Below are positions 10,737 through 55,080 of a stretch of 64,000 nucleotides of DNA, one piece after another. This DNA comes from Niabella sp. (GTDB lineage Bacteria > Bacteroidota > Bacteroidia > Chitinophagales > Chitinophagaceae). Every line of letters starts with the position of its first letter. Positions within the stretch are counted from its first letter, which is position 1. Location of the stretch: positions 54,143-118,142 of the forward strand of contig JAPUDO010000118.1 of the NCBI GenBank assembly GCA_027493055.1. The letters run 5' to 3'. Position numbers and translations under genes: made by a program. The notes beneath the pieces were generated by a model, which was not told the origin of the DNA, did not search any database, and worked only from the letters and a program-made list of their open reading frames with translations.

Positions 10737-11180
10737 ACAGGATGCTGGTTTGAGTCAGGAAGTCAGGAAAGTAGGGAAAGTCCGAGGTCTGAAGTCCGAA
10801 GAAGAGCTCAGATCAGCCTTTAGCTTTCATCTTTCATCTCGTACATCGTACCCCTTACACCGTACATTATGCTGGATGCAGGTTTCTGGTTTCAGGTCTG
10901 CACGGTGCCTTCCGCCTCCGGCTTTTAGCCTTTAGCTTTCATCTTTCATCTCGTACATCGTACCCCTTACATCGTACATTATGCTGGATGCAGGTTTCTG
11001 GTTTTAGGTCTGCGTGGTGCCTTCCGCCTTCCGCCTCCGGCTTTTTGCTTTTAGCCTTTTGCCTGTCCTCTGTTAATTATCATTTGTAGTCATGGTTAGT
11101 CCGTCATCTAAATGCTAAGTACTAAAATCTAACGTCTTGTATCTGTCAACTGTCCTCCGTCCCCTGTCATCTTAAAAACA
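10737..11180 (+). repeat. composite intergenic repeat with an internal 112-bp tandem duplication
   Basis: Non-coding block between menG and the GntR gene. Two direct units start at 10815 and 10927 (period 112) and share CTTTAGCTTTCATC, TCGTACATCGTACCCCTTAC, ATTATGCTGGATGCAGG and GGTGCCTTCCGCC. Bases 10751-10830 match 54,990-55,060 in inverted orientation. Bases 11,038-11,158 match 49,150-49,270 in inverted orientation with only scattered differences, through the words CCTCTGTTAATTATCATT, AGTCATGGTTAGTCC and TACTAAAATCTAACGTCTTG. Short in-frame ORFs here are not credible genes. Confidence 0.85.
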
Positions 11181-11201
11181 GGCATCTTACGCCTCCCTGG
11201 T

Positions 11202-11209
11202 TATATTTG
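11202..11209 (+). promoter_or_regulatory. -7 box for the GntR-family gene
   Basis: TATATTTG fits TAnnTTTG, 29 bases before the ATG at 11239, giving a short leader of about 20-25 bases. It lies just outside the repeat block. No convincing -33 TTTG. Confidence 0.4.
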
Positions 11210-11238
11210 CATTAACTTAGAACTTTAATTGAAGGCTA

Positions 11239-12264
11239 ATGAAGGATTTTTTTAAGCATATTGAGCTGGACGAGCTTTCGTCAACACCGAAGTACCTGCA
11301 ACTGGCGCAATCGGTCATAAAGGCAATTTCTGTAGGCAAGATCAGGAACGATGAGGTAATGCCGTCTATCAATGAAATGAGCTTTGAGTTCGATATATCC
11401 AGGGATACTGCCGAAAAGTCTTATAAATACCTGAAAAAGCTGGGTGTGCTGGGATCGGTGCCCGGGAAAGGATATTTTGTAAAATCAACCAATGTAAAGA
11501 ATGATATCAAGGTGTTTTTACTTTTCAATAAATTAAGCGCCCATAAAAAAATTATTTACGACTCCTTTGTTAAAACCCTGGGCGATAATGCCGCTATTGA
11601 TTTTTACATTTACAATAATGATTTTAATTTCTTTAAGCGCCTGCTTACCAATGCCGGAAAGCATTACTCGCACTATGTGATAGTAACGCACTTTATAGAA
11701 AGCGGAGAGAATGCGTATGAAATTTTGAACACCATACCTAAGGAAAAGCTGATCCTGCTGGATAAGCTGGTATCAGGTGTAGATGGCGATTTTAGCGCAG
11801 TGTACGAAAATTTTGAAAAAGATATTTATGGTGCCCTGGAAAAAGCCCTCGAAAGTTTGAAGAAGTATGAGCACCTGAAAATAATAGTGCCGGAACATAC
11901 TTATTTCCCTAACGAAATAACAAAAGGCTTTGAGCGGTTCTGCCATGAGTATGCTTTTTCAGACTATGTGGTAAATAATATCAGCAAAGAAAAAATAGAC
12001 AGCAGTACAGCCTATATCAGCCTGATGGAGGACGACCTGGTAACATTAATAGAAAAAATAAAGGAGTCAAAGCTTAAGATGGGCAAGGATATAGGAGTGA
12101 TCAGTTATAACGAAACGCCTCTTAAAAAGCTGATATTGCAGGGTATTACTACCATTTCTACCGATTTTGAGGAAATGGGCAGGCAGGCAGCCCAGCTTAT
12201 ATTGGGCGGTGCGAGGAAACAGGTGGAAATACCTTTTTACCTGAGGCTGAGACCGTCCTTGTAG
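11239..12264 (+). CDS. GntR-family regulator with LacI-like sugar-binding domain
   Basis: 341 residues. Residues about 10-80 are a GntR winged helix (STPKYLQLAQSVIKAISVGK, MPSINEMSFEFDISRDTAEK, LGVLGSVPGKGYFV). Residues about 90-340 look like a periplasmic-binding-protein fold as in LacI regulators (VFLLFNKLSAHKKIIYDSFV, DIGVISYNETPLKK, ILQGITTISTDFEEMGRQAA). This architecture is common in Bacteroidota regulators of sugar catabolism such as rhamnose or arabinose. No catabolic operon lies beside it, so the target is unknown. Its stop codon (TAG) is followed directly by the dispersed repeat beginning TTGACAG. Confidence 0.88.
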   Translation: MKDFFKHIELDELSSTPKYLQLAQSVIKAISVGKIRNDEVMPSINEMSFEFDISRDTAEKSYKYLKKLGVLGSVPGKGYFVKSTNVKNDIKVFLLFNKLSAHKKIIYDSFVKTLGDNAAIDFYIYNNDFNFFKRLLTNAGKHYSHYVIVTHFIESGENAYEILNTIPKEKLILLDKLVSGVDGDFSAVYENFEKDIYGALEKALESLKKYEHLKIIVPEHTYFPNEITKGFERFCHEYAFSDYVVNNISKEKIDSSTAYISLMEDDLVTLIEKIKESKLKMGKDIGVISYNETPLKKLILQGITTISTDFEEMGRQAAQLILGGARKQVEIPFYLRLRPSL

Positions 12265-12500
12265 TTGACAGATGACAGATGATTGTTGGCAGTAGGGAGG
12301 TCTAAAGGTTAAAAAGTTGAAAGGCAGGATGGCTATGAATTATTAGCGGGAGCCGGCATAATGTAAGGTATACGATATGAGGTGTACGATGTACGATATG
12401 ACAGCGAAAAGCCGGGAGCTTTATACATCAAGCCTTATGCTTTTGGCCTTTACCAGTAACCAGCATCCAGTAACTTGTAACCAGTAACAACATTTATTAT
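12264..12500 (-). repeat. composite intergenic repeat, minus orientation
   Basis: Starts at the last base of the GntR stop with TTGACAGATGACAGATG and continues with GGCTATGAATTATTAGCGGG, AGCCGGCATAATG and GGTGTACGATGTACGATATG. Bases 12353-12474 match 15992-16120 in inverted orientation, through GCGAAAAGC, CATCAAGCCTTATGC and CCAGCATCCAGTAAC. The two copies therefore form an inverted pair around engB, the DUF4856 gene and the MutS-like gene. Confidence 0.8.
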
Positions 12501-12526
12501 TTTACATTTAATATTCTATTTCTCTC

Positions 12527-13183
12527 ATGCAAATCATTTCCGCATCGTATGTAAAAAGCAGTGCTGTGTACACACAATGTCCGCCTGCAGATAAGGCTGA
12601 GTATGCATTTATTGGCAGGAGCAATGTAGGCAAGTCTTCTTTAATAAACATGTTATGTAATAAGAAAGCACTGGCTAAAACATCGGCAGCGCCGGGGAAA
12701 ACACAGCTGATCAATCATTTTATTATAAATGATATAGCTAAAAGCGGAGCTAAAGCCAAAGCCGGGAAAAGCTGGTATCTTGTAGATTTGCCGGGTTATG
12801 GGTATGCAAAGGTGTCGCAAAAGCAGCGTAAAAGCTGGACTTCCATGATCGAGGACTATATCCTGAAACGCCCTAACCTGGGCAATTTATTTGTGCTGAT
12901 AGATAGCAGGCATGAGCCGCAGAAAATAGACCTGGAATTTATTAACCAGTTGGGAGAGTGGCAGGTGCCTTTTGCCATTGTGTTCACAAAAGCGGATAAG
13001 AACAAGCCGGGCGCTACTATCAATAATGTTCAGAAATTTATAGCAACATTACAAGAGAATTGGGCCGATTTACCACCTTATTTTGTTACCTCTGCCATTA
13101 AGGGAGACGGAAGGGAAGAAGTGCTTGATTTTATCAATGATATGAATAAGGAATTTGAATCGGTAAAGGGGGAGGAGCATTGA
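12527..13183 (+). CDS. engB: ribosome-biogenesis GTPase YsxC/EngB
   Basis: 218 residues, right for the family. All GTPase motifs are visible: G1 GRSNVGKSS (about 31-39), G2 region PGKTQLINHF, G3 DLPGYGYAKV (about 86), G4 FTKADK (about 156) and G5 TSAIKGDGREE. EngB helps late assembly of the 50S ribosomal subunit in the cytoplasm and is usually essential. No partner gene is adjacent. Confidence 0.95.
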   Translation: MQIISASYVKSSAVYTQCPPADKAEYAFIGRSNVGKSSLINMLCNKKALAKTSAAPGKTQLINHFIINDIAKSGAKAKAGKSWYLVDLPGYGYAKVSQKQRKSWTSMIEDYILKRPNLGNLFVLIDSRHEPQKIDLEFINQLGEWQVPFAIVFTKADKNKPGATINNVQKFIATLQENWADLPPYFVTSAIKGDGREEVLDFINDMNKEFESVKGEEH

Positions 13184-13577
13184 GGTTTGCGGAGATGCTC
13201 ATAATGGTATTATTATGTTTTTAATTGTTTAAAGATCTGCTTGCAGTGGTATTAACCATTTTGAGGCATTATCACTAATAAGTATTCATGAGAAATTTGG
13301 AATAATTAATATTTAGATTAACCTAATCATACCCTTCCGGACTTATAGTCCCCAAGTTCTATATTGTAGCCTTCGGGTGCTTTTAAATGTAGCCAAAGGC
13401 TACAACATAGTCCTGCGAAACAAAGTGTTTCGCAGCGCATCCTTGGTATTGTCTGCCTGAATGAATGGTTTTAGACTTGAATTTAAGATGCATTTGCCGT
13501 TTCTGATCCTGATAACAGCTTCATTAAATTAAAACCGGTATTTTTGAAGAAGTTTTCCGTTACCCAAGTGCAATACA
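13184..13577. other. intergenic region with structured element
   Basis: 394 bases between engB and the DUF4856 gene. The only distinct content is the double-hairpin element at 13364-13435; no ORF or clear promoter was recognised. Confidence 0.55.
13364..13435 (+). repeat. double-hairpin intergenic element
   Basis: First part: TTGTAGCCTTCGG (13364-13376) pairs 12 of 13 with CCAAAGGCTACAA (13393-13405), and AGCCaaaGGCT is a small nested hairpin. After the linker CATAGTC comes a perfect 9-bp hairpin, CTGCGAAAC (13413-13421) and GTTTCGCAG (13427-13435), loop AAAGT. The same linker with a second hairpin recurs at 48.86-48.91 kb and twice at 52.0-52.2 kb. Strand assignment is arbitrary. Confidence 0.75.
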
Positions 13578-14654
13578 ATGAATTTGTTTTTTAGAATTTT
13601 GAGTTTTTTTACAATATCGCTGGGCTTTGTTTCCTGCGTTAAGAATGAGCCCTTTTTAAGCGCTTATTCGGTTCCCGCTGTTTTTAAATATGAAAATACT
13701 GACTCATCTGCTAAAGCCCGTGTTATTATGATGCATGGTATGCGGAACTACCTGGCAACCTCAGTTGATGGTGCCTTAAACCAGGCGATTGTTGATTCCC
13801 TGTGGGCTAATCGGGGGAAGCCTTTCACAAGTATAATGGTGCCGGATTTTGCTTATAGAGACAGTACGCTGAACAGGATGTCCAATGTAACCCTGCAGTC
13901 GGCCACCGGCGATGCTGATTCTGTTAAAGCGTATGCTGATTCTGTGGTAGAAAACAGCCGGTTTTATAATGTTGCAGGCAGCAAAGGTACGGCTGGCTGG
14001 CAAATGCAAACTACCCCTGTATCTGCTAAAAGACTTTTTAGTAAAGATGGCGTAGCATATAATGAGGTTTGGGCCAATGCCATGCTGGGCGCTATGGCTT
14101 TAAGAAACGTATTTGCCCAGCTAAACAGCGCAGCTGCCAATAAAACCTGGGCGCTGGCTTATGATTATACCGGGTTCCCTGAAAACTACGATCCTGATAA
14201 AAACTATGAAACGGCACCGGTCCCTAAAGACAGGCCGCTAAGTATAGCCGGCTGTTTTTCCTCGCTGCCTGGTTCGCTGAACCCCGGGGCAGACGTGTAT
14301 GAAAGTTTCAGAAGGGGAAAAGCAGCCGTGTATGCAGGTGATTTGCGTGTAGGCAGCACGTCCATTGGTTCTATTTATTTTACTCTGGAAAGAGCTTTAG
14401 CTTTAGCTGCGGTCATTCATTTAGATGCTGCGGTAAAATATACTGATATTGCCGGCAGGCTGAACGAGCTGTCTCAGGCTTACGGGCTTGTTATTGCATT
14501 AAAATACCGGCATGCCATCAGCCTCCTTAGCGTGGATGACTATTGGTTGCTCCGGAGCTTTTTTGATGAGAACTTTTATACATTGGTGCAGGACCCGTCT
14601 CATGTGAACATCAATGCGGCAATGACGTTGCTTACAGGCATATATAAACTGTAG
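13578..14654 (+). CDS. DUF4856 lipoprotein (imelysin-related)
   Basis: 358 residues. The N-terminus is a lipoprotein signal ending at Cys20 (LGFVSC). The mature start SVPAVFKYENTDSSAKARVI is the DUF4856 opening (VP-x-Y-x-F-E-N). The rest is helical, including KRLFSKDGVAYNEVWANAML and YDYTGFPENYDPDKNY. DUF4856 proteins are Bacteroidota envelope lipoproteins distantly like imelysin-type iron-linked proteins; no biochemical role is established here. It ends three bases before the MutS-like gene's stop (convergent). Family assignment is from remembered sequence pattern. Confidence 0.7.
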   Translation: MNLFFRILSFFTISLGFVSCVKNEPFLSAYSVPAVFKYENTDSSAKARVIMMHGMRNYLATSVDGALNQAIVDSLWANRGKPFTSIMVPDFAYRDSTLNRMSNVTLQSATGDADSVKAYADSVVENSRFYNVAGSKGTAGWQMQTTPVSAKRLFSKDGVAYNEVWANAMLGAMALRNVFAQLNSAAANKTWALAYDYTGFPENYDPDKNYETAPVPKDRPLSIAGCFSSLPGSLNPGADVYESFRRGKAAVYAGDLRVGSTSIGSIYFTLERALALAAVIHLDAAVKYTDIAGRLNELSQAYGLVIALKYRHAISLLSVDDYWLLRSFFDENFYTLVQDPSHVNINAAMTLLTGIYKL

Positions 14655-14657
14655 TTA

Positions 14658-15977
14658 TTATAAGCGCTCCAGCAGCTCAACTACTTTTTCCCTTTTAAGA
14701 ATGAGATATCCCAGCCGGTCTTTGCTGATACCTTCTTTAAGCTGGTAGCTGAAAGACAGCGCATCGTCCGTAACCGTTGTTTCAAAATGTTTAAAAGCAA
14801 TAGTAGGAAGCTCTTTCAGTTCTTCTCCTGTTTCATATAAATGAGTAGACAATACAAACAGCGAGGTTTTTACTTTCACCAGTCCTTTAATAACTGCCAG
14901 GGAGCAGCGCATGGCATCCTCCACATTGGTGCCTTTAAACAGCTCATCAATCAGCACCAGCCATTTTTTCCCGTCATTGATCTTTTGAACCGTATTTTTT
15001 ATACGCTGCACTTCGTTAAAGAAAAAGCTTTCTCCTTTAACAATATTATCTGTTACATTAATATTGCTAATGAGGCCATCAAACATGGTAAGCTTCATTT
15101 CTGTAGCCGGTACGCCCATACCTATATGGGCTAAAAATACACAGGCTCCTACCGATTTGATAAGTGTGCTTTTTCCTGCCATGTTAGCCCCCGTTAAAAA
15201 AAGAAAATTTTGTTCGGGACTCATCTGCAAATGGTAAGGAACGGGGTTGTGCAGTAATAAATGATATAAGCCTTTGGCTTCAATAAACGGGCAGTCGCTT
15301 TCTATAAATATGGGAAAATGCAGGTTGTATTTCTTTACGGCGAATGCCATAGAATACCAGGCGTCCAGCCGGCTGTAAATGTCTATCAGCTCCTGCACTT
15401 CAAATTTATAACGGCCGCGAACATTGGTAGCAAAATAGAGGGTCTTATGCTGAGGGATAACCTCGTCTTTACCTATATCAGCCATTTGCCTGAACGGCTC
15501 AATACAGCTAAGCAGATGGCTGATACGATCTGTATAAATTTTAAAAGAGGCTGGCATCTCTATTCCGCTCAATATGGTTTCGATCTTTTTAAGTCCCCTG
15601 AAAAAATCAGTAAAATGCTTAATTGAGAATTTTGCCATCGAATAATCGGCGCTGTGCAGCAGCCGGTACATAAAAGCATCCACGGCCGAAGGGTTATCAC
15701 CGATAGTATCTAAAGCATAATCCAGGAACTTGATCATTACCAGCACGGTTCCGTTAGTTATTTCTTCGGGCCATTCATCCACGTGCAGGATCAGCTTTTT
15801 AAGGATGTTTTGCGTGCCGGTTATTTTTTTGAGATCGTTGAAAGGGGAAGAAAAGAAGTGACGCAGCCACTCCTTACCCCCTTCAGTACGTGTAAAGTTG
15901 AGCTTATGGAAAATAGAGTAGCTTTCTTCCTGGTGAAATATGGAAATGTCGTTAAAAGAAATATTGTCTATCTGCAT
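14658..15977 (-). CDS. MutS-family ATPase lacking the mismatch-recognition domain
   Basis: 439 residues, about half the length of MutS. The C-terminal half holds the MutS ATPase: Walker A GANMAGKST (about 262-270), GVPATEMKLTMFDGLISNIN, signature GESFFFNEVQRI, Walker B LVLIDELFKGTN and STHLYE. The N-terminal half matches the lever/core helices; no N-terminal mismatch-binding domain with its Phe-x-Glu motif is seen, nor a Smr domain. Such short MutS-related proteins are common in Bacteroidota and their DNA substrate is not known. Transcribed alone from a region filled by a dispersed repeat. Confidence 0.82.
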   Translation of the reverse strand: MQIDNISFNDISIFHQEESYSIFHKLNFTRTEGGKEWLRHFFSSPFNDLKKITGTQNILKKLILHVDEWPEEITNGTVLVMIKFLDYALDTIGDNPSAVDAFMYRLLHSADYSMAKFSIKHFTDFFRGLKKIETILSGIEMPASFKIYTDRISHLLSCIEPFRQMADIGKDEVIPQHKTLYFATNVRGRYKFEVQELIDIYSRLDAWYSMAFAVKKYNLHFPIFIESDCPFIEAKGLYHLLLHNPVPYHLQMSPEQNFLFLTGANMAGKSTLIKSVGACVFLAHIGMGVPATEMKLTMFDGLISNINVTDNIVKGESFFFNEVQRIKNTVQKINDGKKWLVLIDELFKGTNVEDAMRCSLAVIKGLVKVKTSLFVLSTHLYETGEELKELPTIAFKHFETTVTDDALSFSYQLKEGISKDRLGYLILKREKVVELLERL

Positions 15978-15984
15978 GGTATAA

Positions 15985-16285
15985 GTTAATCGTTACTGGA
16001 TGCTGGTAAAGGCCGAAGGCATAAGGCTTGATGCATAAAGCTTTCGGCTTTTTGCTTCCAGCTTTTCGCTGTCATATCGTACATCGTACACCTCATGTCG
16101 TATATCTTACATTATGCTGGTTGCAGGTTACAAGTTTCTGGTTTCAGGTCTGCACGGTGCCTTCTGCCTCCGGCTTTAAGCCTTTAGCTTTCCGCTTTCA
16201 TCTTTCATATCGTACATCGTACACCTTACATCGTACATTATGCTGGCTCCCGCTAATAGTTCATAGCCAAACCCTGTCATCTTCA
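15985..16285 (+). repeat. composite intergenic repeat, plus orientation
   Basis: Fills the gap between the MutS-like and dihydroorotase genes. Contains GTTACTGGATGCTGG, AAGGCTTGATGCATAAAGC, TCGTACATCGTACACCTCAT and, twice, a CATTATGCTGG core (about 16110 and 16237). The second core is followed by CTCCCGCTAATAGTTCATAG, the inverted form of the GAACTATTAGCGGGAG word at 54.8 kb. Inverted match to 12353-12474. Confidence 0.8.
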
Positions 16286-16287
16286 CT

Positions 16288-17649
16288 CTATCGTTCAAAC
16301 AAAAGTCTTTCTCCCTTTATAGACTCATCCCACTGCCCATTTCCATAAACTAAATGCCCGTTTACAAAAGTATGGGTAATGCTTGCCGGGAAATGGAAGG
16401 CGCTGCCGTTTTCCCCGGCCTTTTCAAACGGGCTCCAGCCGCATTTATATAAAATATTTTCCTTGCTCACAATAAAGGGTTTACGGGTATCCACAATTAC
16501 AAGGTCTGCAAAATAGCCTTCGCGTATATAACCCCTTTCTTTAACAGAGAAGCAGTCAGCTACTGCATGGCTCATTTTTTCTGCAATTTTTTCAAGTGAT
16601 ATTTTGCCCAGGCTGTGATAGTATAACATAAGCGGCAGGGAATGCTGTACCAGGGGCAGTCCGGCGTGTGCCTTCAGGTAAGGTTCGTTTTTCTCTTCAA
16701 AAGTGTGGGGTGCATGGTCGGTGGCAATTACATCCAAACGGTCATCCAGCAAGGCTTTCCATAAGGCTTCTTTATTAGGCGCCGCTTTAATGGCCGGGTT
16801 ACATTTTATGAAATTGCCCTGCTGTACATAATCATCTGCCGTGAAATGCAGGTGATGCACGCAAACTTCTGCTGTGATCCTTTTTTCCTTCAGCGGCAGC
16901 ATGCTGGAAAAAAGCTGCAGCTCCTTTTCTGTGCTGATGTGCAGGATATGCAGCCTTGCATTATGCTTTTTAGCCAGCTGAACAGCGTAAAAAGAAGATT
17001 CAAAGCAGGCTTCCTCATTCCTGATAACAGGGTGATCCGCAGCGGTGAGTTCGCGTCCCGAATCCAGGGCTTTCTGCATATTGGCTTTAATGATCTTTTC
17101 GTCCTCGCAATGCGTAGCAATGAGCATTTCGCTTTCGCTGAAAATTTTCTCCAGCACCAGCGGGTTGTCCACCAGCAAATTCCCGGTACTGCTGCCCATA
17201 AACATTTTGATGCCACAGATGCGGTCTTTAAATGCATTGGCCGACAAAGCGCCTGCCGCGTTGATATTGTTAGTGCCTATATAAAAAGAATAATTAGCTA
17301 AAGAAGTTTGAGCGGCAATATTATATTTATCTTCCAGCAGGTCGAGCGTAAAGGTAGGCGGCACTGTGTTGGGCATTTCCATAAAGCTGGTCACACCACC
17401 GGCAACGGCGGCTTTTGCTTCTGTATAAATACTGGCTTTATGGGTCAATCCCGGCTCACGAAAATGTACCTGGTCGTCAATTACTCCTGGTAATAAGAAT
17501 TTTCCCTCACCGTTAATTTCTATTGTCTTTTCTGTGGTGCTGATCTCCGCGTCTATTTTTTCTATACGCCCGTTTTTTATAAGAACGTCTTTTGTCTCAG
17601 TTTTTCCTTCGTTTACTACCTGAATGTTTTTTAAAAGATATATTTGCAT
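16288..17649 (-). CDS. pyrC: dihydroorotase
   Basis: 453 residues from the ATG at 17649; an ATG 54 bases upstream adds a charged, non-conserved leader. Class I dihydroorotase features: IKNGRIEKID, VIDDQVHFREPGLTHKA (about 53-69), GIKMFMGSSTGNL with the carbamylated-Lys position, THCEDEK, LHILHIST and DVIATDHAPHTFEEK (about 304). It cyclises carbamoyl aspartate to dihydroorotate in pyrimidine synthesis. The first His of the metal-binding HxH is Gln here (DQVHF), a form I recall from other Bacteroidota sequences. The 3' end runs into the dispersed repeat. Confidence 0.87.
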   Translation of the reverse strand: MQIYLLKNIQVVNEGKTETKDVLIKNGRIEKIDAEISTTEKTIEINGEGKFLLPGVIDDQVHFREPGLTHKASIYTEAKAAVAGGVTSFMEMPNTVPPTFTLDLLEDKYNIAAQTSLANYSFYIGTNNINAAGALSANAFKDRICGIKMFMGSSTGNLLVDNPLVLEKIFSESEMLIATHCEDEKIIKANMQKALDSGRELTAADHPVIRNEEACFESSFYAVQLAKKHNARLHILHISTEKELQLFSSMLPLKEKRITAEVCVHHLHFTADDYVQQGNFIKCNPAIKAAPNKEALWKALLDDRLDVIATDHAPHTFEEKNEPYLKAHAGLPLVQHSLPLMLYYHSLGKISLEKIAEKMSHAVADCFSVKERGYIREGYFADLVIVDTRKPFIVSKENILYKCGWSPFEKAGENGSAFHFPASITHTFVNGHLVYGNGQWDESIKGERLLFER

Positions 17650-22344: not shown

Positions 22345-22345
22345 T

Positions 22346-27456: not shown

Positions 27457-27624
27457 CTTCTGAGATCTTCCTTGTAATCTGTTAGAGGTAGAGGTATTGT
27501 GGCTGATCAGGGTGTTACTCACAGAAGCCACAGAAAGCACAGCATCTTCTGAGATCTTCCATGTAATCGGTGAGAGGTAAAAGTATTTGGGCTGATCAGG
27601 GTGTTGCTCACAGCAGCCACAGAA
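27457..27624. repeat. 89-bp-period tandem intergenic repeat
   Basis: Two direct units of about 79 bases begin at 27457 and 27546 with CTTCTGAGATCTTCC and end in GAAGCCACAGAA and GCAGCCACAGAA; both contain GGCTGATCAGGGTGTT. They differ at roughly eight positions. Bordering bases repeat CACAGAG-like words (27414-27431) and TCCTCAGTGGTAAAAT. The block lies in the 414-base gap between the S41 protease and the BadF-type kinase, where no gene was recognised. Confidence 0.85.
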
Positions 27625-33556: not shown

Positions 33557-33836
33557 CTTATAACCAAAGATAGCTTAAGGATAAGTAGTAACCGATCCCT
33601 AATTCGAGGTATATTAGTTATATCGGTATAATAATTATAATTGTTATACACTCTTGTTGTCTGGGTCAATAACATTTTTGCTGTCGGTGATAACACAGGA
33701 CAGCGGCGCCCGCAGTGGCAGGTTATCACCCGCCACAAAATATCGGCTACTATATAAAATTGTTATGCGCCCTGTTGTCTCTCTTTTATCATTTTTACGT
33801 AATTTGCCGGTCTATACTACAAAATCATATTATTTT
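33557..33836. promoter_or_regulatory. divergent control region with a 9-bp inverted repeat
   Basis: About 280 bases between the response-regulator start and sucB. GGTGATAAC (33686-33694) and GTTATCACC (33722-33730) are perfect inverted repeats 27 bases apart, around a GC-rich core. It might be an operator, or the stem of a structured leader. The sucB frame stays open through this stretch from a TTG at 33654, but that extension has no lipoyl-domain character. Confidence 0.35.
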
Positions 33837-35393
33837 ATGGCTGTTGATATTAAAGTGCCTGCAGTTGGAGAGTCAATAAGTGAAGTAACCTTATTGAAAT
33901 GGGTAAAAAAAACGGGAGATTATGTTGAACGAGATGAGGTAATTGCAGAACTGGAAAGTGAAAAAGCTACTTTTGAGGTAAATGCTGAAAAAGCAGGTGT
34001 GCTCACCACTAGTGTGAGCGAGGGAGATGCTATAAACATAGGTGATGTAATAGCCAGTATTGATGATACAGCCGCCAGGCCTGCTGATGCCGCCGGGCCG
34101 GACGAAAATGATACGAAAGAAACTGAAGCGCCTGTAGCAGCTGTTGCGCCTGCTCAGGAAGAGGAGCCGTTAAAGCCTACCGGTAAAGAAGTGCCTGTGA
34201 TCATACCAACCGTGGGAGAGTCAATAAGTGAAGTAACCCTGCTGAAGTGGGTGAAAAAATCGGGCGAATACGTGGCGCGTGATGAAGTAGTAGCAGAGCT
34301 GGAAAGTGAAAAAGCCACTTTTGAAGTAAATGCAGAGCTGGCAGGTATATTAGAAACTACTGTGGCCGAGGGAGATACATTAAAAATAGGTGATACCATT
34401 GCTCTTATAAAAGAAACTACGGGCAAACCTGCAGCGCCTAAAGCCGAAACAGCGGCTCCTAAAGTACAGGGAAATAAAACGGAAGTACTCAAATCTGCTC
34501 CTGCTGTTAAAGCTACCCCGGTTGCCTCTGCAATTATAGCCGATAAAAAAGTGGACCCCAAAACCGTTAAGCCATCAGGCTTCTCTGGAAAAATTGTAAA
34601 AGATGATGTGCTGGCTGCTTTAGCTACCCCAGGTAAAAAAGCGTTCGATGGCGGCGAATTGTTTACCCGCAACCAGCGTGCAGAAAAAATGACCAACCTG
34701 CGCAAAACCATCAGCCGAAGGCTGGTAGAAGCAAAAAACACTACGGCTATGCTTACTACTTTTAACGAGGTAGATATGCAGCCAATAATGGATATACGCG
34801 CCAAATATAAAGACAAGTTTAAAGAAGTGCATGGCGTGGGCCTGGGCTTTATGAGCTTCTTTGCCAAAGCCTGTGCTATTGCCTTAGGAGAGTGGCCCAG
34901 CGTAAATGCTTATATTGATGGCGACCAGGTGCTGTACCATGATTATGCCGATATCAGCATTGCTGTAAGCACACCACGTGGTCTTACAGTACCTGTGATC
35001 CGCAATGTAGAGAGCCTGGGTATGGCTGAAATTGAAAAAGCGGTAGTGGATCTTGCTACCAAGGCCAAGAACAGCAAGCTTACGGCTGATGATCTTACCG
35101 GTGGTACTTTTACTATTACCAATGGCGGTATATTCGGATCTATGTTAAGCACGCCTATTATTAATATACCTCAAAGCGCTATATTGGGTATGCACAATAT
35201 TATCCAGCGCCCCGTGGCTGTAAACGGTCAGGTGGTTATCCGTCCTATGATGTATGTGGCCCTGAGTTACGACCACCGTATTATTGATGGCCGCGAATCG
35301 GTGAGCTTCCTGGTTCGCGTAAAAGAATTGCTGGAAAACCCTGCTTTGCTGCTGGTACAAAAAGATCCTGTAAAAGCATTGCTGGAGCTATAA
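33837..35393 (+). CDS. sucB: dihydrolipoamide succinyltransferase (2-oxoglutarate dehydrogenase E2) with two lipoyl domains
   Basis: 518 residues from the ATG at 33837, where [13 protein letters not shown] begins. Two nearly identical lipoyl domains (about 1-75 and 118-195) each contain [15 protein letters not shown] and the lipoylated Lys in ESEKATF (near 42 and 158), joined by Ala/Pro-rich linkers. A subunit-binding region ([20 protein letters not shown]) and the catalytic domain follow, with the HxxxDG site in [15 protein letters not shown] (about 478). It forms the core of the 2-oxoglutarate dehydrogenase complex. Two lipoyl domains are more than the one of Escherichia coli SucB. Confidence 0.93.
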
Positions 35394-48092: not shown

Positions 48093-48107
48093 TTAAAATT
48101 TTATCGC

Positions 48108-48629: not shown

Positions 48630-49490
48630 TTGACAGATGACGGATGACAGGGGGGGAAGTTGAAAAGTTTAATAGTTTAAAAGGTGATAGGGTTTGGCTA
48701 TGAACTATTAGCGGAAGCCAGCATAGTGTACGATGTACGAGATGAAAGCGGAAAGCTAAAGGCTGAAAGCCAAAAGCGAGAGACCAGGCACACGTTTCTT
48801 TTCTCGCAAACTTCCGGACCTCGGACTCCGGACATTAAGGTGTAGAATGCATAAAGCAAAGGTCGCTGCAAGCGACAGAATAGTATTGCGAAGCGTCCTC
48901 GCTTCGCATAGCGGCATCATAAAGGCTGGAAGCTTAAAACGAAAAGCTGAAGGCTAGTTACAGACGCTTCGGTCTTCCGACCCCGGACTTCCGGACTTTC
49001 CTGACTATCTTAAGATGACAGTTGACCGAGGACAGATGGCGGTTAACAGGCACGAGACTAATAACTATGAGCTAAAAGCAAAAGGCTGATCTCTTCTTCC
49101 GATCTCGGACCCCGGACTTCCGGACTTTCCTAACTTCCGGACTATCTTAAGAGGACAGATGACGGTTAACAGATACAAGACGTTAGATTTTAGTACTTAG
49201 TATTTAGATGAGGACTAACCATGACTACGAATGATAATTAACAGAGGACAGGCATAAGGCTAAAAGCAAAAAGCCAGATGCTGATTTCTTCGAAGCACGG
49301 TCTTCGGACTTCCGGACTTTCCGACTTCCGGACTATCTTAAGATGACAGTTGACCGAGGACAGATGGCGGCTAACAGACACGAGGCTAATAACAACGAGC
49401 TGAAAGCTAAAAGCAAAAGACTGATCTTCTTCCGACCTCGGACTTCCTGACTTTCCCGACTTTTCTGACTTCCCGACTCCTTCCTCCCAT
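48630..49490 (-). repeat. large composite intergenic repeat block upstream of the type VI genes
   Basis: About 860 non-coding bases. It starts at the pyrR stop with TTGACAGATGACGGATGAC and contains GGCTATGAACTATTAGCGG, GTGTACGATGTACGAGATG and GGAAAGCTAAAGGCTGAAAG, a direct match to 54.75-54.9 kb. Two direct internal units at 49003-49100 and 49331-49432 share GACTATCTTAAGATGACAG, TTGACCGAGGACAGATGGCG and AGCTAAAAGCAAAAG. Bases 49150-49270 are an inverted near-copy of 11038-11158. Runs of TTCCGGACTTTCC-like words recur throughout. No gene is credible here. Confidence 0.88.
48862..48908 (+). repeat. double-hairpin intergenic element
   Basis: GTCGCT-GCA-AGCGAC (48862-48876) is followed by the linker AGAATAGTAT and TGCGAAGCG-TCCT-CGCTTCGCA (48887-48908, perfect 9-bp stem). 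The layout equals the element at 13.4 kb, with different stem sequences and a similar ATAG linker. It is embedded in the composite repeat block. Confidence 0.7.
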
Positions 49491-49600
49491 CACTATATTT
49501 AGCTATGCCGGTAATTGGAAAACGTTTTTACCTTTACCCTGTGCCATTCAGTTACATCATAGAACCGAACGATTATATTTAAAACTAAAAAAATGTTTTT

Positions 49601-50056: not shown

Positions 50057-50078
50057 ATCATCTTAATCCTATTTAAAT

Positions 50079-51467
50079 ATGTCTACACCTCAAAATCAAC
50101 TTTCTCCCGAAGAACAAAGTATATCCAAAGAGTTTAAGCAGCCCGAAAAGGCGGAGCTGGGCACGCTCGAATCTCATCTTCAGCCATTGGTAAAGCTGGG
50201 CGGCTTCGATTTGCTGGAGTCTGCTATTGACAATATTCAAAACCTGAACCCGGAACGAAAAGCCCGGAAAAAGATCTTTTTGGAAGAGGCTACTAAGAAA
50301 AAGGAACGCGAAGAGCTTAAAAACGTATTGAGCTGCTGGATCGATATCCTGGAATCTACCGAGGATATTGCTGAAATGGTAGAAAACAGCAACAAGCTTG
50401 CGGAAACAGCAGACAGAACATTAAAAAATAACCTGAGAAAAGCGCTGGAAAGAACACAGGAGCTGGAACGCTCTTATCGTTCTGTAGCGTTGTTCTTTAA
50501 GAATACCGAAAGCCAGAAAGTGAAGAATGTTTCTTTTATCAATGCCGAGCCTGATCAGCTTAAAGACCTTGACAACACAAGGTTCATGGATTATATACAG
50601 GCAGAGCTGGTGAATAATTATGACAGGCTCGACTTGCGCAACAATTACGGCATACTGGTGCTGCCGGGATATTTGGGATCAAATAAGGTAGTTGAAAAAT
50701 GGGCAAAAATTGCCTATGATAATAAAGTGATGCTGGTTACTGATTTTGAGAATCTTGATACGCCGGACGATGTTATGGAACTTTTCGAAGCAGCCAACCT
50801 TACAGGAGGTGATGCGTATCGGTCTAACGTGGTAATGGCCTGTAACTGGCTGGTAGGGCGCGACAAAGATGATGAAGTGGGAGAAGAAGACCATTTGTTT
50901 GTGCCACCCTCTTCGTCACTGGCTGGTAAAATCTATTATACCTTAATGTCTCAGGTTACTGCGGGTAAAAAACATGGCAGTATGAACGAGGTGGATGGTG
51001 TGAGGTTTGACCTGAAAAAAAGTGAAATTGCCGGCCTTGAAAAGCTGGGCCTTGTTCCTATGGCCAAAGAGTATGGCAAAGTAATGGCGTTCTCTGCCAA
51101 AACATTATTTAATGGAGATAATATCGGTTTACAGACTTACTCTGTAGTTCGGGTGTTTGATTATGTAGCTAAAGTAATGATGGACTTTTTGAACAGGAGA
51201 GCTTTTGAAAATTTTAATGCCAATACAAGAAAAGAGCTTAACGGGCAAATTGTTAAGTTCCTGGATAGCATTACGGGTCCTAATAAGCTGATTGAAAACT
51301 TTACCATTAAAAGATTTGAGCAGGACCCGCAACAGAAAGACAGGGTATTTCTTGATATTCATCTAAAACCCTATTTCCCCGCAAAAACTTTTTTGATTAA
51401 GCTTGATGGTCAGAAAGGCGACGATGCGGACGGAATAGAATGGATGTCGAAATACGAGCAGGATTAA
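50079..51467 (+). CDS. tssC: type VI secretion contractile sheath large subunit TssC
   Basis: 462 residues. LTPERKARKKIFLEEATKKK-like helices at the N-terminus (about 60-110) precede the sheath domain: LGVLVLPGYLGSNKVVEKWA-like text (GILVLPGYLGSN), LVTDFENLDTPDDVMELF, MACNWLVGRDKDDEV and the C-terminal handshake region NKLIENFTIKRFEQDPQQKD. This is the Bacteroidota (subtype iii) TssC type. It should form the sheath with TssB; both genes keep the 22-base spacing of a coupled pair. Confidence 0.9.
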   Translation: MSTPQNQLSPEEQSISKEFKQPEKAELGTLESHLQPLVKLGGFDLLESAIDNIQNLNPERKARKKIFLEEATKKKEREELKNVLSCWIDILESTEDIAEMVENSNKLAETADRTLKNNLRKALERTQELERSYRSVALFFKNTESQKVKNVSFINAEPDQLKDLDNTRFMDYIQAELVNNYDRLDLRNNYGILVLPGYLGSNKVVEKWAKIAYDNKVMLVTDFENLDTPDDVMELFEAANLTGGDAYRSNVVMACNWLVGRDKDDEVGEEDHLFVPPSSSLAGKIYYTLMSQVTAGKKHGSMNEVDGVRFDLKKSEIAGLEKLGLVPMAKEYGKVMAFSAKTLFNGDNIGLQTYSVVRVFDYVAKVMMDFLNRRAFENFNANTRKELNGQIVKFLDSITGPNKLIENFTIKRFEQDPQQKDRVFLDIHLKPYFPAKTFLIKLDGQKGDDADGIEWMSKYEQD

Positions 51468-51558
51468 TCATATAACCCCGCTCCGGCATTTACCCTGACA
51501 ATAGCCCTTAATTAGTTAGTTGTTTTATACTTATTTATTAACATCAAAATGTACAATT

Positions 51559-51948
51559 ATGTCTTTTAAAGCACAATTAGATGTGGCAGGCGCCAAAAAT
51601 AATATCCTTGACCTTACTTACACTTTAAAGCAGGAAACAGACGCTACCGGCCGGCCGTCATCAGTTACGCGCGGAGGCCAGATCACCATTACTGTAGAAT
51701 CAACAGGAGACACCAAGTTCTTTGAGTGGATGTGCAACAATTTTGAGAGAAAAGATGGTAAGGTCACATTTACAAAGAGAGATTCTGACGCTACTATGAA
51801 AGAGCTGAGCTTTAAGGAAGGGTACCTGGTTTCCTATAAAGAAAATTTCAATGCCGCCGGGGAAAACCCCATTACAGAAACTTTTACCATTAGCGCCAAG
51901 GAAATTGCTATGGGAAATGCCAGCCATGCGAACGAGTGGGCGGTATAG
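51559..51948 (+). CDS. tssD: type VI secretion tube protein TssD (Hcp)
   Basis: 129 residues from the ATG at 51559 (MSFKAQLDVAGAKNNILDLT); a TTG 39 bases upstream is in frame but unsupported. The Hcp fold is shown by YTLKQETDATGRPSSVTRGG, ITITVESTGDTKFFEWMCNN and GYLVSYKENFNAAGENPITE, as in Bacteroidota TssD. Hexameric rings of this protein stack into the inner tube that is fired with effectors. It lies 91 bases after tssC and is followed by a 326-base gap holding hairpins and a MITE-like element before tssH. Confidence 0.9.
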   Translation: MSFKAQLDVAGAKNNILDLTYTLKQETDATGRPSSVTRGGQITITVESTGDTKFFEWMCNNFERKDGKVTFTKRDSDATMKELSFKEGYLVSYKENFNAAGENPITETFTISAKEIAMGNASHANEWAV

Positions 51949-51992
51949 TTGAAGTATCTTGTCAAACATACATGTTGTATTAATGATCGCCT

Positions 51993-52242
51993 GATGCTCT
52001 TCGAAACATTGATGCTCTGCGAAACATTTTGTTTCGCAGAACTATGCTGGGGCTGACCAAAAAGGTTGCCAAATGATTCATTTATTCGGGTAGGTGATGG
52101 AGACTAATAGTCGTTTATGCAATTCTCAGAACCTTCGTTTACCTTTTTAGTCGGCCCCAGTTAAAAGTAGCCAAAGGCTACAGCATAGAACTTCGGAACT
52201 GCAAGTCCCGAAGAACGATGACAAGTCCTGAAGAGCGATAAC
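51993..52242. repeat. compound hairpin and tandem-repeat region between tssD and tssH
   Basis: Left edge: two 18-bp tandem units, GATGCTCTTCGAAACATT (51993-52010) and GATGCTCTGCGAAACATT. Then a perfect 10-bp hairpin, CTGCGAAACA (52017-52026) and TGTTTCGCAG (52030-52039), and the inverted linker AACTATG. Right edge: AGCC-AAA-GGCT (52169-52179), linker CATAGAA, a second stem CTTCGG/CCGAAG, and two 20-bp tandem units at 52203-52222 and 52223-52242 (AAGTCCCGAAGAACGATGAC and AAGTCCTGAAGAGCGATAAC). The two halves are arranged head to head around the MITE-like element. Confidence 0.75.
52047..52160. mobile_element. MITE-like element with 20-bp terminal inverted repeats
   Basis: CTGGGGCTGACCAAAAAGGT (52047-52066) and ACCTTTTTAGTCGGCCCCAG (52141-52160) are inverted repeats matching at 18 of 20 positions, enclosing about 74 non-coding bases. 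The ends resemble GGGGCTG-type termini of some insertion sequences, so this could be a non-autonomous relic moved by a transposase elsewhere. No certain target-site duplication was found, which leaves a long regulatory hairpin as the alternative. Confidence 0.5.
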
Positions 52243-52274
52243 AAAATCTTTTAACAGCGTTCCTGCCCCTGACT

Positions 52275-54746
52275 ATGCAATTATCAGAAAATCTTAAAAA
52301 AGCCATCAGCATTGCAAAAGCGTATGCCAAAGAAAATATGAACGGCGCTTATGCTGCGCCTCATTTATTAAAAGCATTGCTGCATAATGATGTGGAGCTG
52401 GACCCGTTATTGATGAAGGCCGATATTGACATGTACTACCTGGCAGATTGGGCCGATGTAAGGATAGAGTCCCTGCCTAAAAGCGGATCACCCAAAGCTG
52501 AAATTCCTGCGGATGATGCCATCGAAACCATCCTGGATGATGCAGATAATATCCGTCTTAAAACAAACGCTGAAGAAGTGTTACCCCTGCATGTGCTGGC
52601 ATCTATAAGCACGCCCGGTATTGTTTTTTCTTTTGACCAGCTAAAAACCTTTCCGGTAAAGCGGGAAGAGGTAATAAAGCTGGCTGAAGTGGATAGCGGA
52701 GGGGCGCAATTACTCAGCGATATCAGCAATAGCAATGCTGAAGGGAAAAAGAACAATGATCTTTCTTCTAAAAAAGCCCTGCAGAAATATTGTATAGATA
52801 AAACAAAGCTTGCCCTGGAGGCAAAGCTGGATCCGATCATCGGGCGTGAGCAGGAAATAAGAATGATGGCCGAGATTTTATGTCGCAGGAGCAAGCCCAA
52901 TGTAATATTAACAGGCGAGCCGGGAGTTGGGAAAACCGCGCTGGTGGATGGCTTTGCGCTTGCTATAGCCGCAGGAAAAGTGCCTGAGTTTTTAAAGAAT
53001 GCAAAAGTTTTTGAACTGAACAATGGTGCTATGGCGGCCGGCGCTTCTTACAAAGGAGAAACTGAAGAAAGGCTAAAATCGGTCATTACAGAGATTAAGG
53101 AATTTGATAAGGCTGTTTTGTTTATTGATGAGATACATGTATTACTGGATAAAAGCGGCCCCTTTGCAGGCGCTGCCAATTTACTTAAGCCGGAGCTGGC
53201 AAGGGGTACCATTACCATCATAGGCGCTACAACTGTAGATGAATACAGGAAGCATATTGAAAGGGATGAAGCTTTTGCCCGCCGGTTTGAAGTGCTGAAT
53301 GTGGAAGAGCCTTCTCCTGCCGTGGCCTTCCGTATGATGAAGATAGTAATGCCTTTGTACGAGCAGCATCATAAAATAGAAGTGGCAGATGAAACCCTGC
53401 ACGAATCCATAAGACTGGCAAAGCGCTATATAAAAGACCGGCGCCTGCCGGATGCGGCCATTGACCTGGCAGACCGTTCTATGGCTGCCCTGCGGCTTGC
53501 TACAGATACCGGTGCTGCTGCTTTGGCGGCTCAGAAAACAGCATACAGTAGTCTGAAAGAAAGTGATGGTATGGATATTGCCGAATACCAGTGGCATTAC
53601 CAGCAGTTAAAGAGTGGTATGAGCCCCATTGTATGGAGTGCTGTACCTGTGTCGGACGATCCGTTACAAATGAAGGAGACCGCAACCATAACAGCTTTTT
53701 TAGATGAGGTATATAAGGTGCTGGAGCCACTGGCCGAAGAAAAGCGTACAGCATTGGAGATGCATGATGTGATGTCAATTGTTGCCGATAAAACGGGGAT
53801 ACCCCTGGGGAAGATACAGGCGCAGGAAAAAGAAAGGTTGCTGAACATCGGGGATATTTTGTCGCAGCGTGTGGTAGGGCAGGATCATGCAGTAAAAGTG
53901 ATTAGCGAATCTATTCTTGAATCGCGCTCAGGACTGGGCAAACCAGGTCAGCCTATCGGCTCATTCTTTTTCCTGGGACCTACGGGTACGGGTAAAACAG
54001 AATTAGCGAAGTCGTTAGCCGATTTTCTTTTCCAGGATGCCAGCAATATCATTCGTTTTGATATGAGCGAATTTAAAGAGGAACATTCTGCTGCACTTTT
54101 ATATGGCGCCCCTCCCGGCTATGTAGGCTATGAGGAAGGAGGATTGCTGGTAAATAAGATCAGGCAGCAGCCTTATGCGGTTGTTTTGTTTGATGAGATC
54201 GAAAAAGCGCACCCATCGGTATTTGATCTTTTCCTCCAGATATTAGATGAAGGGAAGCTGCATGATAAGCTGGGTAAGGAGGGCGATTTCTCCAATTCCC
54301 TGATCATTTTTACTTCAAATATCGGCAGTAAATATGTGGTGGATGCTTTTAATAAAGGTGAGATCCCTAACCATTCACAACTGCTCCAGGTAATGGGTAA
54401 TCATTTCAGGCCCGAGTTTTTAGGCCGCCTAACCGAGATCGTTCCTTTTGCACCTATGACGCAGCAAATGGTAGAGCGTATTTTAGAGATCAACCTGAAA
54501 GACCTGTATGCAGCCTTAGAAAAACAGCAGATCTCGCTTACAATAACACCCGCGGCCAAAAGCAAAATTGCGGTTTTAGGCTTTACACCTGAATATGGTG
54601 CACGCCCGTTGCACGGCGCTATCCGCTCTCAAATACGCAGGCCGCTCTCCAAAAAAATAATAACGGGGGAATTGGCGCCTGGCAGCTCAGTTACGCTTGA
54701 TGTAGCAGGAGATGAATTAAGCTGGCAGGTTGTTGGAAACAGTTGA
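52275..54746 (+). CDS. tssH: type VI secretion AAA+ ATPase TssH (ClpV)
   Basis: 823 residues, ClpB/ClpV architecture. N-domain about 1-150 (AKENMNGAYAAPHLLKALLH). First AAA: Walker A GEPGVGKTALVDG (about 213), VFELNNGAMAAGASYKGETE, Walker B AVLFIDEIHVLL, and FARRFEVLNVEEPSP. Second AAA: GPTGTGKTELAKSLADFLF (about 568), FDMSEFKEEHSAALLYGAPP, GYVGYEEGGLL, VVLFDEIEKAHP, and LGRLTEIVPFAPM. ClpV disassembles the contracted sheath for reuse; ClpB or ClpA-like roles are less likely beside tssB, tssC and tssD. Its TGA stop is supplied by the start of the next repeat (TTGACAG). Confidence 0.87.
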   Translation: MQLSENLKKAISIAKAYAKENMNGAYAAPHLLKALLHNDVELDPLLMKADIDMYYLADWADVRIESLPKSGSPKAEIPADDAIETILDDADNIRLKTNAEEVLPLHVLASISTPGIVFSFDQLKTFPVKREEVIKLAEVDSGGAQLLSDISNSNAEGKKNNDLSSKKALQKYCIDKTKLALEAKLDPIIGREQEIRMMAEILCRRSKPNVILTGEPGVGKTALVDGFALAIAAGKVPEFLKNAKVFELNNGAMAAGASYKGETEERLKSVITEIKEFDKAVLFIDEIHVLLDKSGPFAGAANLLKPELARGTITIIGATTVDEYRKHIERDEAFARRFEVLNVEEPSPAVAFRMMKIVMPLYEQHHKIEVADETLHESIRLAKRYIKDRRLPDAAIDLADRSMAALRLATDTGAAALAAQKTAYSSLKESDGMDIAEYQWHYQQLKSGMSPIVWSAVPVSDDPLQMKETATITAFLDEVYKVLEPLAEEKRTALEMHDVMSIVADKTGIPLGKIQAQEKERLLNIGDILSQRVVGQDHAVKVISESILESRSGLGKPGQPIGSFFFLGPTGTGKTELAKSLADFLFQDASNIIRFDMSEFKEEHSAALLYGAPPGYVGYEEGGLLVNKIRQQPYAVVLFDEIEKAHPSVFDLFLQILDEGKLHDKLGKEGDFSNSLIIFTSNIGSKYVVDAFNKGEIPNHSQLLQVMGNHFRPEFLGRLTEIVPFAPMTQQMVERILEINLKDLYAALEKQQISLTITPAAKSKIAVLGFTPEYGARPLHGAIRSQIRRPLSKKIITGELAPGSSVTLDVAGDELSWQVVGNS

Positions 54747-55080
54747 CAGAGGACAGATGAAGGATTGAAAGGGTGGAAAGGTGAAAAGTTTAATGGTTTA
54801 AAAGTTGATAGGGGTTGGCTATGAACTATTAGCGGGAGCCAGCATAATGTACGATGTAAGGGATGAAAGCGGAAAGCTAAAGGCTGAAAGCCGGAGGCGG
54901 AAGTCACTGTGCAGACCAGAAACTAGTAACCTGCATCCAGCATAATATATGATGTAAGGTGTAAGATATACCATATGAAAGCTAAAAGCAGAAGGCTGAA
55001 GGCTGATCTTTTCTTCGGACTTCAGACCTCGGACTTTCCCGACTTTCCTGACTATCTTAAGAGGATAGTGACATCTGGTA
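54744..55080 (-). repeat. composite intergenic repeat downstream of tssH
   Basis: Begins at the tssH stop (TTGACAGAGGACAGATG) and contains GAAAAGTTTAATGGTTTAAA, GGCTATGAACTATTAGCGGG, AGCCAGCATAATGTACGATG and GGAAAGCTAAAGGCTGAAAG, in the same orientation as the block at 48.63-48.78 kb. Bases 54,990-55,060 (TCTTCGGACTTCAGACCTCG, GACTTTCCTGACTATCTTAA) match 10751-10830 inverted. It fills the whole gap between convergent tssH and the GH16 gene. Confidence 0.85.

Follow-up and report, generated by a model that had tools for sequence, protein, structure and literature searches.

The window that we analysed, 64,000 nucleotides (nt) of a Niabella sp. draft genome of 5.75 Mb in 131 contigs (contig JAPUDO010000118.1, positions 54,143 to 118,142 of the forward strand), carries six blocks of intergenic DNA, at about 7.43, 10.7, 12.26, 15.99, 48.6 and 54.7 kilobases (kb), all of which repeat with a period of 7 nt. 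The blocks are probably degenerate heptameric tandem repeats, which would have grown by slippage, drifted in sequence and then been copied from one gap between genes to another. An earlier reading made from the letters alone (the sequence-only reading) had described them as composite repeats built from freely shuffled short modules. It had located the six blocks and seen that they have words in common, and it missed their defining property, the 7-nt period present in every block. Our comparison confirmed the common words, with matches between blocks of as much as 151 nt at 85% identity and 60 nt at 95%. The pattern is real and strongly above chance, and drifting heptameric tandem repeats explain the blocks better than a modular element does; the steps of mechanism beyond the pattern are what we infer from it. 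To us the blocks have the look of a bacterial repeat type that has received little study and expands through slips in copying, and not that of a gene or a mobile element.

A period of seven nucleotides

Each block was compared with itself at shifts of 1-30 nt. At a shift of 7 the self-identity of the six blocks was 0.42, 0.54, 0.49, 0.55, 0.42 and 0.49, corresponding to z scores of 4.1-12.4 against first-order shuffles, with 4.1 for the 7.43-kb fragment. The five larger blocks gave lesser peaks at shifts 14 and 21, and at shifts below 14 other than 7 the z score was at most 2.8 (shift 8 in the 48.6-kb block and shift 10 in the 7.4-kb fragment). The window's 12 remaining gaps longer than 120 nt had identities of 0.24-0.34 at shift 7. 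The blocks are therefore degenerate 7-nt tandem repeats, and the view that they are unlike a simple tandem repeat has to be given up. In the 10.7-kb block (10737..11190, minus strand) about 57 heptads can be followed in register by eye. An excerpt split in sevens reads CTTACAC CGTACAT TATGCTG GATGCAG GTTTCTG GTTTCAG GTCTGCA CGGTGCC TTCCGCC TCCGGCT TTTAGCC, and every word of this ladder is similar to the word before it.

We then scored an 848-kb sample of the same genome, the window included, taking a lag-7 identity of at least 0.5 as the mark of a heptad window. Such windows made up 549 of 10,948 intergenic but 59 of 101,013 coding windows (41 after removal of a masked N run). The sequence-only reading was right to describe a dispersed, multi-copy family of intergenic DNA. 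Within the 341 gaps of at least 80 nt, 504 of 9,660 windows passed at lag 7, compared with 3/9,808 at lag 4, 2/9,761 at lag 5, 2/9,713 at lag 6, 41/9,607 at lag 8 and 2/9,561 at lag 9; ten Markov shuffles gave 37/96,600 at lag 7, so the real rate is about 136 times higher. The count at lag 8 is a smaller excess of its own, and hairpins of words of about 8 nt were seen in two congeners (G016 and G009). Of 98 blocks found in the sample, 24 were set aside (more than half of their length within a called gene, one being the masked N run) and 74 kept. Our gene caller takes the longest open reading frame (ORF), so that 5' ends are overlong, and for this reason some of the blocks set aside, such as that at 7.35-7.49 kb of the window, are repeats inside false ORFs.

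Across the 74 blocks we counted 204 word classes, led by ACATCGT, ACACCGT and ACAGATG, with the commonest class present in 17 blocks. In the 23 blocks of at least 150 nt the identity decayed as 0.523, 0.438, 0.379, 0.327, 0.306, 0.283 and 0.264 at lags 7 to 49 in steps of seven, where the lag-7 value is itself selected, the blocks having been chosen by lag-7 identity, and the values at lags 14-49 are unselected. Most remaining lags gave 0.24-0.28. This smooth fading identifies the 'modules' of the sequence-only reading as stretches of heptad ladder. Differences between neighbouring heptads were transitions in 703 of 1,395 cases (0.504, against 0.321 expected from composition). A simulation with duplication and loss of single heptads and transition-rich substitution reproduced the decay with a root-mean-square deviation of 0.020; the fit worsened when slips could reach two or three heptads (0.037 and 0.064 at best).

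The step size could also be approached from alignments. In 451 alignments between blocks, indels of at least 3 nt peaked at length 7 (51 cases, with 9 at 6 nt and 5 at 8 nt), beside 134 single-base and 46 two-base gaps; since 7-periodic sequence biases gapped alignment towards 7-nt gaps, we use this peak as supporting evidence only. Where a pair of blocks had well-separated matches, the shift in diagonal from one to the other was a multiple of 7 in 37 of 96 cases (p 4e-9 if independent). Identical 16-mers within a block, at spacings above 21 nt, lay 111, 112, 113, 114, 119, 119 and 133 nt apart, four of the seven being multiples of 7.

Probable copying between gaps and growth in one lineage

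The words of the blocks recur across the genome to different degrees. GATGTACGATGTACGA has, at up to one mismatch, 49 matches and its reversed control none, and TTGACAGATGACAG has 73 against 7 (and 76 in the congener G007, N. ginsengisoli GR10-1). Both words are far above chance in the whole genome. GAACTATTAGCGGGAG is local to the window: all of its four matches at 0-1 mismatch lie there, and at two mismatches it has 15 against 13 for the control. With the 48.6-kb block as query, at least 68 places were found in the genome, from 40 scored among 194 first-look candidates; outside its own contig each was shorter than 150 nt.

Free shuffling of modules is not what we observed. Read in one orientation, three blocks give A-B-C-A-D-F, A-B-C-D-E-F-C-A-D-F and A-H-B-C-D-E-F-C-D-G, and two others A-H-B-C-D-G-A-D-G-A-I-A-D-G-A-D-G and A-I-A-I-A-D-E-F-C-D-E-F-C-G-F. 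These five blocks keep largely one common order, with losses and duplications. Under looser gapped scoring, the longest alignment covers 529 nt at 78% and links two gaps of contig C76 that are separated by 7 kb; blocks on different contigs aligned over up to 295 nt (63%) and 254 nt (78%). Of 213 heptad-gap pairs lying within 50 kb of each other, 16 shared at least 100 nt, compared with 40 of 1,513 pairs on different contigs (p 0.0007, the pairs not being independent). Sharing is about three times commoner within 50 kb than between contigs, and we therefore read the cassettes as copied with a local bias, presumably by recombination or template switching. (The number of heptad gaps is 58, 62, 64 or 46 depending on the test, since the overlap and window rules differ.) The sequence-only reading had offered three roles without choosing among them: a transcribed element, a recombination substrate and debris of a non-autonomous element. 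Of these a recombination substrate fits best, given the long local sharing and the excess of shifts in multiples of 7.

Four gaps were compared with their orthologues in sister species. The gap of the 10.7-kb block measures 539 nt here and 138, 140, 259 and 161 nt in G016, G009 (N. hibiscisoli), G007 and G005 (N. defluvii), without heptads. In the same order of species the gap of the 12.26-kb block measures 262 nt against 79, 80, 62 and 122, that of the 15.99-kb block 310 nt against 78, 78, 167 and 78, with other or weaker heptads there, and that of the 48.6-kb block 971 nt against 274, 272, 273 and 269. The four gaps are thus shorter by 140-702 nt in the sister species, where the heptads are absent or different; for two of them sister species have short heptads of other words, such as GTTGATAGTTGACAAATGACAG (G007) and AAGGTTTAAGGTTT (G016). 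Two heptad-free gaps of more than 300 nt keep their length (618 nt against 612, 612 and 604, with 2,107 in G007; 312 against 315-317). Within our own sample, gaps with blocks are also the longer ones, with a median of 290.5 nt (n=58) compared with 177.5 nt (n=282).

Further afield, a 101-nt query from the 54.7-kb block matched this genome at 33 places and the 16 congeners at none. Heptad windows numbered 72 of 1,746 in G011, 1/1,032 in G016, 3/1,840 in G009 and 5/4,204 in G007. G011 (loci L153 and L256-L260) is about as rich in heptads as the window's genome, with other words and several hairpin-like blocks, and relatives closer to the window's species than G011 have almost no heptad windows. 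Word classes shared with our genome numbered 35 of 83 in G011 (reversed control 22), 16 of 32 in close Niabella (9), 7 of 21 in other Niabella (6), 56 of 157 in other named genomes (52) and 1 of 6 in Trichormus (2), so that the excess of common vocabulary is modest for G011 and the close relatives and absent elsewhere. Among 80 named loci surveyed, one or more lag-7 windows occurred in 17 and a lag-8 window in 18 (109/16,684 and 54/16,575 windows; one locus, L160, had no genes called and was scored as wholly intergenic). By these counts the heptad excess in the survey is a modest one. A 50-kb stretch of a Trichormus plasmid held two blocks only, both mostly within called genes, and a single stretch of this size is too little for a statement on Nostoc.

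These observations suggest the following course of events. The blocks consist of 7-nt units whose neighbours are alike, with a similarity that fades over about five or six units. Single heptads would be duplicated or lost, most likely by strand slippage in replication, as the fitted model allows, and transition-rich substitutions would keep altering the words, so that an array walks through word space. Gaps, more often nearby ones, have strings of about 5 to 30 heptads in common; these were probably transferred where shared heptads primed recombination or template switching, giving rise to the apparent modules in their largely common order. The greater length of four gaps here, compared with four sister species, is most simply read as growth of the arrays in this lineage, rather than shrinkage in the others. 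The genome would have no need of the array sequence, though some copies make terminator-like hairpins, and the arrays would lie between genes because intergenic DNA tolerates 7-nt changes and coding DNA does not.

Several points weigh against this reading, beginning with the selected lag-7 value given above. In the block alignments 1-nt gaps outnumber 7-nt gaps, and a 7-periodic sequence favours 7-nt gaps in gapped alignment by construction. Among the diagonal shifts a remainder of 2 is likewise raised (20 of 96), and octads occur besides heptads. The locality of sharing is non-monotonic, since pairs on the same contig more than 50 kb apart share in 3 of 165 cases, below pairs on different contigs. 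Gap growth is not restricted to heptad gaps, as three gaps without heptads are likewise longer here (394 nt against 51-110, 348 against 100-145, and 326 against 176 in the one relative measured). Pure neutrality of the arrays is strained by two results: the inward arrangement of the GACAG word described below (20 against 4 in this genome), and the recurrence of heptads in the same gaps of sister species. Relatives had heptads in 6 of 16 gap-species pairs with an array here and 2 of 25 without (p 0.04), a small and non-independent count in which an array in a relative means a best 42-nt window of at least 0.50, and which omits the gap at 33557-33653 (four relatives too short), three relatives of the gap at 51949-52274 (moved) and gaps without an orthologue in the compared stretches. 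Lastly, with one strain of this species available, no slippage event was observed, and both the rate and the step come from the model and the patterns above.

Known heptamer repeats and rival explanations

Several known kinds of repeat resemble the blocks in part. The heptanucleotide simple sequence repeats (SSRs) of the Mrazek type are reportedly near-perfect arrays of a single word, whereas here the words drift continuously, an array can run to about 57 heptads and cassettes of several words come back in many gaps. Calothrix and Nostoc have short tandemly repeated repetitive (STRR) heptamers, which are alike in that one genome holds several heptameric words. REP, BIME and REPIN sequences and MITE families are small, intergenic, multi-copy and sometimes arranged as inverted pairs; unlike them the window's blocks have no constant palindrome or ends, and to our knowledge a 7-nt period is not a feature of these families. 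With the SSR/STRR kind our blocks have in common a 7-nt unit with similar adjacent copies and a concentration in intergenic DNA; they do not consist of near-perfect copies of a single word per array. As the words drift to background by lag 49, we regard them as a variant of that kind and not a plain member.

Heptanucleotides were the most abundant long-unit SSR class in most genomes studied by Mrazek, Guo and Shah (2007), and polymerase slippage over a 7-nt contact has been proposed for them, both as cited in passages of PMC4679880 and PMC4692102. According to passages of MacGregor (2015; PMC4679880), direct repeats of TAACTGA occur in Beggiatoaceae, cyanobacteria and five Bacteroidetes, in an intergenic and patchy manner; at the arrays of Gramella forsetii and A. 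sublithincola the gaps of relatives are shorter and without obvious repeats, other heptamers occur too, and Elizabethkingia anophelis has larger heptamer-repeat assemblages. Our blocks are similar in being intergenic and patchy heptamers with shorter gaps in relatives. The TAACTGA system as presented in those passages differs in using one fixed word, placed mostly just before start codons in its main species, and here we found many drifting words, no clear start-codon preference and no placement of TAACTGA directly upstream of start codons. Passages of Rehm (2015; PMC4692102) describe heptamer arrays of GGGNATC and GGGGA(C/T)T in Xanthomonas and Nostoc, found mostly in the same gaps of two related species with differing length and sequence, and mention three Calothrix heptanucleotides. 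Those arrays are heptameric and intergenic like ours, and differ in being single-word and G-quadruplex forming, the words here not being G-tracts. Fixed-word heptamers, gap differences from relative to relative and 7 nt as a polymerase contact are on record in PMC4679880 and PMC4692102. In the open-licence literature we found no description of drifting heptad arrays in Niabella or Chitinophagaceae.

The preference for a 7-nt unit in bacterial repeats has been noted, without an experimental explanation in the literature covered. Dozens of arrays in this genome record the process, and the decay between neighbours, step size, type of substitution and copying between gaps can be measured from sequence; the sister species with short orthologous gaps provide before-and-after pairs. 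Intergenic repeats that appear 'modular' may be drifting tandem repeats and not mobile elements, which is relevant to annotation in Bacteroidota.

Four other explanations were weighed. A MITE- or REP-like non-autonomous element with GACAG-heptad ends, of which the long blocks would be old, degraded and nested copies, draws on the arrangement in G007: among 76 matches of TTGACAGATGACAG, neighbours within 600 nt faced inward 13 times, outward never and in the same direction 7 times. By eye, the outer ends of the G007 elements are often (T/A)AGTTGACAG ... CTGTCAACT, so that they begin and end with AGTTGACAG, and one filled site of about 196 nt between matching flanks corresponds to 55 nt in G016 and 51 nt in G005, heptad-free by eye. 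Five of the window's blocks also follow a largely common order beginning with GACAG. The word also has a second form, in which it makes inward hairpin arms in G007: across all 17 genomes, a degenerate GACAG pattern with arms 15-45 nt apart faced inward and outward 53 and 9 times in G007 and 20 and 4 times here (reversed-pattern controls of the inward pattern 7 and 8, nested matches counted), compared with 2 to 13 inward in the other 15 genomes and 4 to 15 in their controls. However, the interiors of the 13 paired G007 elements seem unrelated by eye, with word-to-word distances of 24-225 nt from start to start, pairing of the two arms is no stronger inside an element than across elements (means 15.9 and 17.0; p 0.93 by permutation) and no target-site duplication was recognised by eye. 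Our own sample shows no inward excess within 500 nt, with 4 inward, 3 outward and 32 in the same direction for the strict GACAG word and 21, 24 and 74 for a looser one, and copies do not each carry terminal inverted repeats, the excess being confined to 15-45 nt. Searches against Pfam (one ORF) and plasmids and phages (one block) gave no mobile-element match, no insertion-sequence library being searched, which agrees with the sequence-only reading that the blocks are unlike an insertion sequence. A mobile element would also leave the 7-nt period in dozens of unrelated words unexplained. We consider it rather unlikely, and debris of a non-autonomous element, which neither the arm-pairing permutation nor the longer-range orientation test upheld and for which no constant ends or interior were recognised, is not supported as the main account. 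Unlikely too, in our estimate, is a role as parts of terminators, with stems of 7- or 8-nt quasi-repeats growing by hairpin-assisted slippage and the termination role kept. It is suggested by one place 3' of a conserved gene, where all eight genomes inspected among 17 matched in Niabella (G007, G016, G009, G005, G010, G001, G008 and our own) have, by eye, species-specific hairpins or short repeats; the best 35-nt lag-7 identity was 0.57-0.74 in five of them, and G016, G009 and G005 (0.37-0.43) had words of about 8 nt instead. Hairpin arms made of heptads occur by eye in other Chitinophagaceae, some G007 elements look terminator-like by eye, with L268 folding to -25.4 kcal/mol before a T run, and in 15 of 60 blocks, where about 6.7 were expected, the inverted arms outdid every one of 8 heptad-permuted versions.

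Against a terminator role, the heptad blocks of our genome fold no more strongly than control gaps do (mean z -0.72, n=58, against -1.02, n=70, at up to 160 nt per sequence; 6/58 and 11/70 below -2), and a stable hairpin with a T run 3' of a gene is not what characterises them. Blocks occur in 58 of 341 gaps (42/222 codirectional, 8/69 divergent, 8/50 convergent), with no significant scarcity in divergent gaps (p 0.20), one of which holds the 10.7-kb block, and stop codons were nearer in 21 of 32 cases, which is not significant (p 0.11). Inverted arms at gap ends exceeded the null in 19 of 408 gaps of our sample (5/64 heptad and 14/344 other gaps), showing no clear link, and in 0/41, 6/50 and 0/51 gaps of G007, G011 and G016. 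As there is neither a folding excess nor a clear preference for gap type or stop codon, we leave the terminator role as a rival and as a component of the speculation given further on. A structured RNA was likewise unsupported in this genome, with no Rfam match at gathering score across the window and folding at control level. A binding platform for a heptad-reading protein that controls neighbouring genes (for example of the cold-shock or S1 type, following MacGregor's idea for TAACTGA) would account for the regular 7-nt spacing, and a passage of PMC4679880 cites one cold-shock protein per heptamer. In codirectional gaps GACAG lay 19 times in sense and 9 times in antisense, a weak preference that is not significant (p 0.09), as is that of GTACGAT (13:6, p 0.17), and it is absent for AAGC (27:24), with TCCGGAC at 5:4 and CCAGTAAC at 10:9. 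A rule that the words follow gene direction, true of all three codirectional gaps in the window, was thus not confirmed by the sample, and a bias in sense-strand stop codons (29 blocks with more and 16 with fewer among 51, against 93 and 67 of 173 control gaps) was dropped. The words vary within an array and between species and take no clear position relative to start or stop, and we think a binding role very unlikely. Chance, low complexity or an assembly artefact is refuted by the self-comparison of the blocks and the shuffled windows, and has next to no probability in our view: drifting repeats can resemble low complexity, but nothing was found in its favour, the rate is far above that of shuffled sequence with its maximum at lag 7, and heptads also occur in congeners with separate assemblies. 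Beyond slippage-grown, drifting tandem repeats one may speculate, with no great expectation, that fixed intergenic sites, often gene ends, are rewritten lineage by lineage with a new heptad vocabulary in Niabella and its relatives, by active hairpin-templated copying in 7-nt steps; the length of the heptad would then directly reflect the machinery of replication, and stems of terminators would be the nurseries of long, spreading word ladders.

The blocks of the window and their neighbours

The smallest block, a heptad-array fragment at 7420..7600 (minus strand), lies in the right part of the 471-nt gap 7133-7603 and does not fill it, contrary to the claim that each block takes up its whole gap. 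A module scan found none of the named modules in it, and 36 nt of it (TACATCGTACATTATGC...) align at 69-89% with five other places, one of which, 6240-6275, is not a block. The 10.7-kb block occupies most of the gap between divergent genes for a UbiE-type methyltransferase and a GntR regulator and contains a tandem duplication of 112 nt (16 x 7). The block at 12262..12500 (plus strand) begins at the GntR stop codon (TAG-TTGACAG-ATGACAG) and stops just short of an EngB-type GTPase gene, whose closest named matches come from Niabella (Chitinophagaceae). Two tandem sub-blocks spaced by 133 nt (19 x 7) make up the block at 15985..16290 (minus strand), between an amidohydrolase and a MutS-type gene; the latter (14658-15977) encodes a MutS domain V protein, with a domain III match below the curated cut-off. 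The longest block, 48630..49490 (plus strand), begins at a phosphoribosyltransferase stop codon and repeats a unit of GACTATCTTAAG, GACAG and AAGC. That at 54736..55085 (plus strand) is the fullest copy of the common order, A-H-B-C-D-E-F-C-D-G. The upstream ClpB-type AAA gene, of 823 residues, has its TGA stop within the first word of this block, TTGACAG (54743-54749), and because most full-length orthologues align only up to residue 817-820 (window 54738-54763), the array may have overrun the end of that gene.

No sign of coding was seen in the blocks, in keeping with the sequence-only reading: the one within-block ORF scanned (16028-16345, 106 amino acids) has no Pfam family up to E 0.01. 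Two further ORFs, of 92 and 89 amino acids and outside the Pfam scan, overlap the 54.7-kb block. The 48.6-kb block, the one block tried, had no plasmid or phage match, and between 48.5 and 55.2 kb Rfam gave just two matches, at E 0.69 and 0.8, neither in an array. In a window-wide repeat search the blocks were among the largest families, direct and inverted, beside some repeats within genes.

Within the 48.6-kb block lies a separate palindromic hairpin (GCGAAGCGTCCTCGCTTCGC, 48856..48910, no strand assigned) that is not itself heptad sequence. It represents a second small palindromic family with arms around GCGTCCTCGC or TTTCGCAG; similar pieces occur at 13383-13441, 52011-52049 and 52161-52199, in two heptad-free gaps, and a look-alike was seen by eye within a G007 heptad element (L263). 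A direct tandem duplication of 89 nt (89% alike) at 27457-27624 lies in a divergent gap and is not heptad DNA. Two long direct repeats, at 33864-34432 within an ORF (spacing 348 nt, 75%) and at 63491-64000 at the window end (spacing 327 nt, 86%), are probably repeated protein domains.

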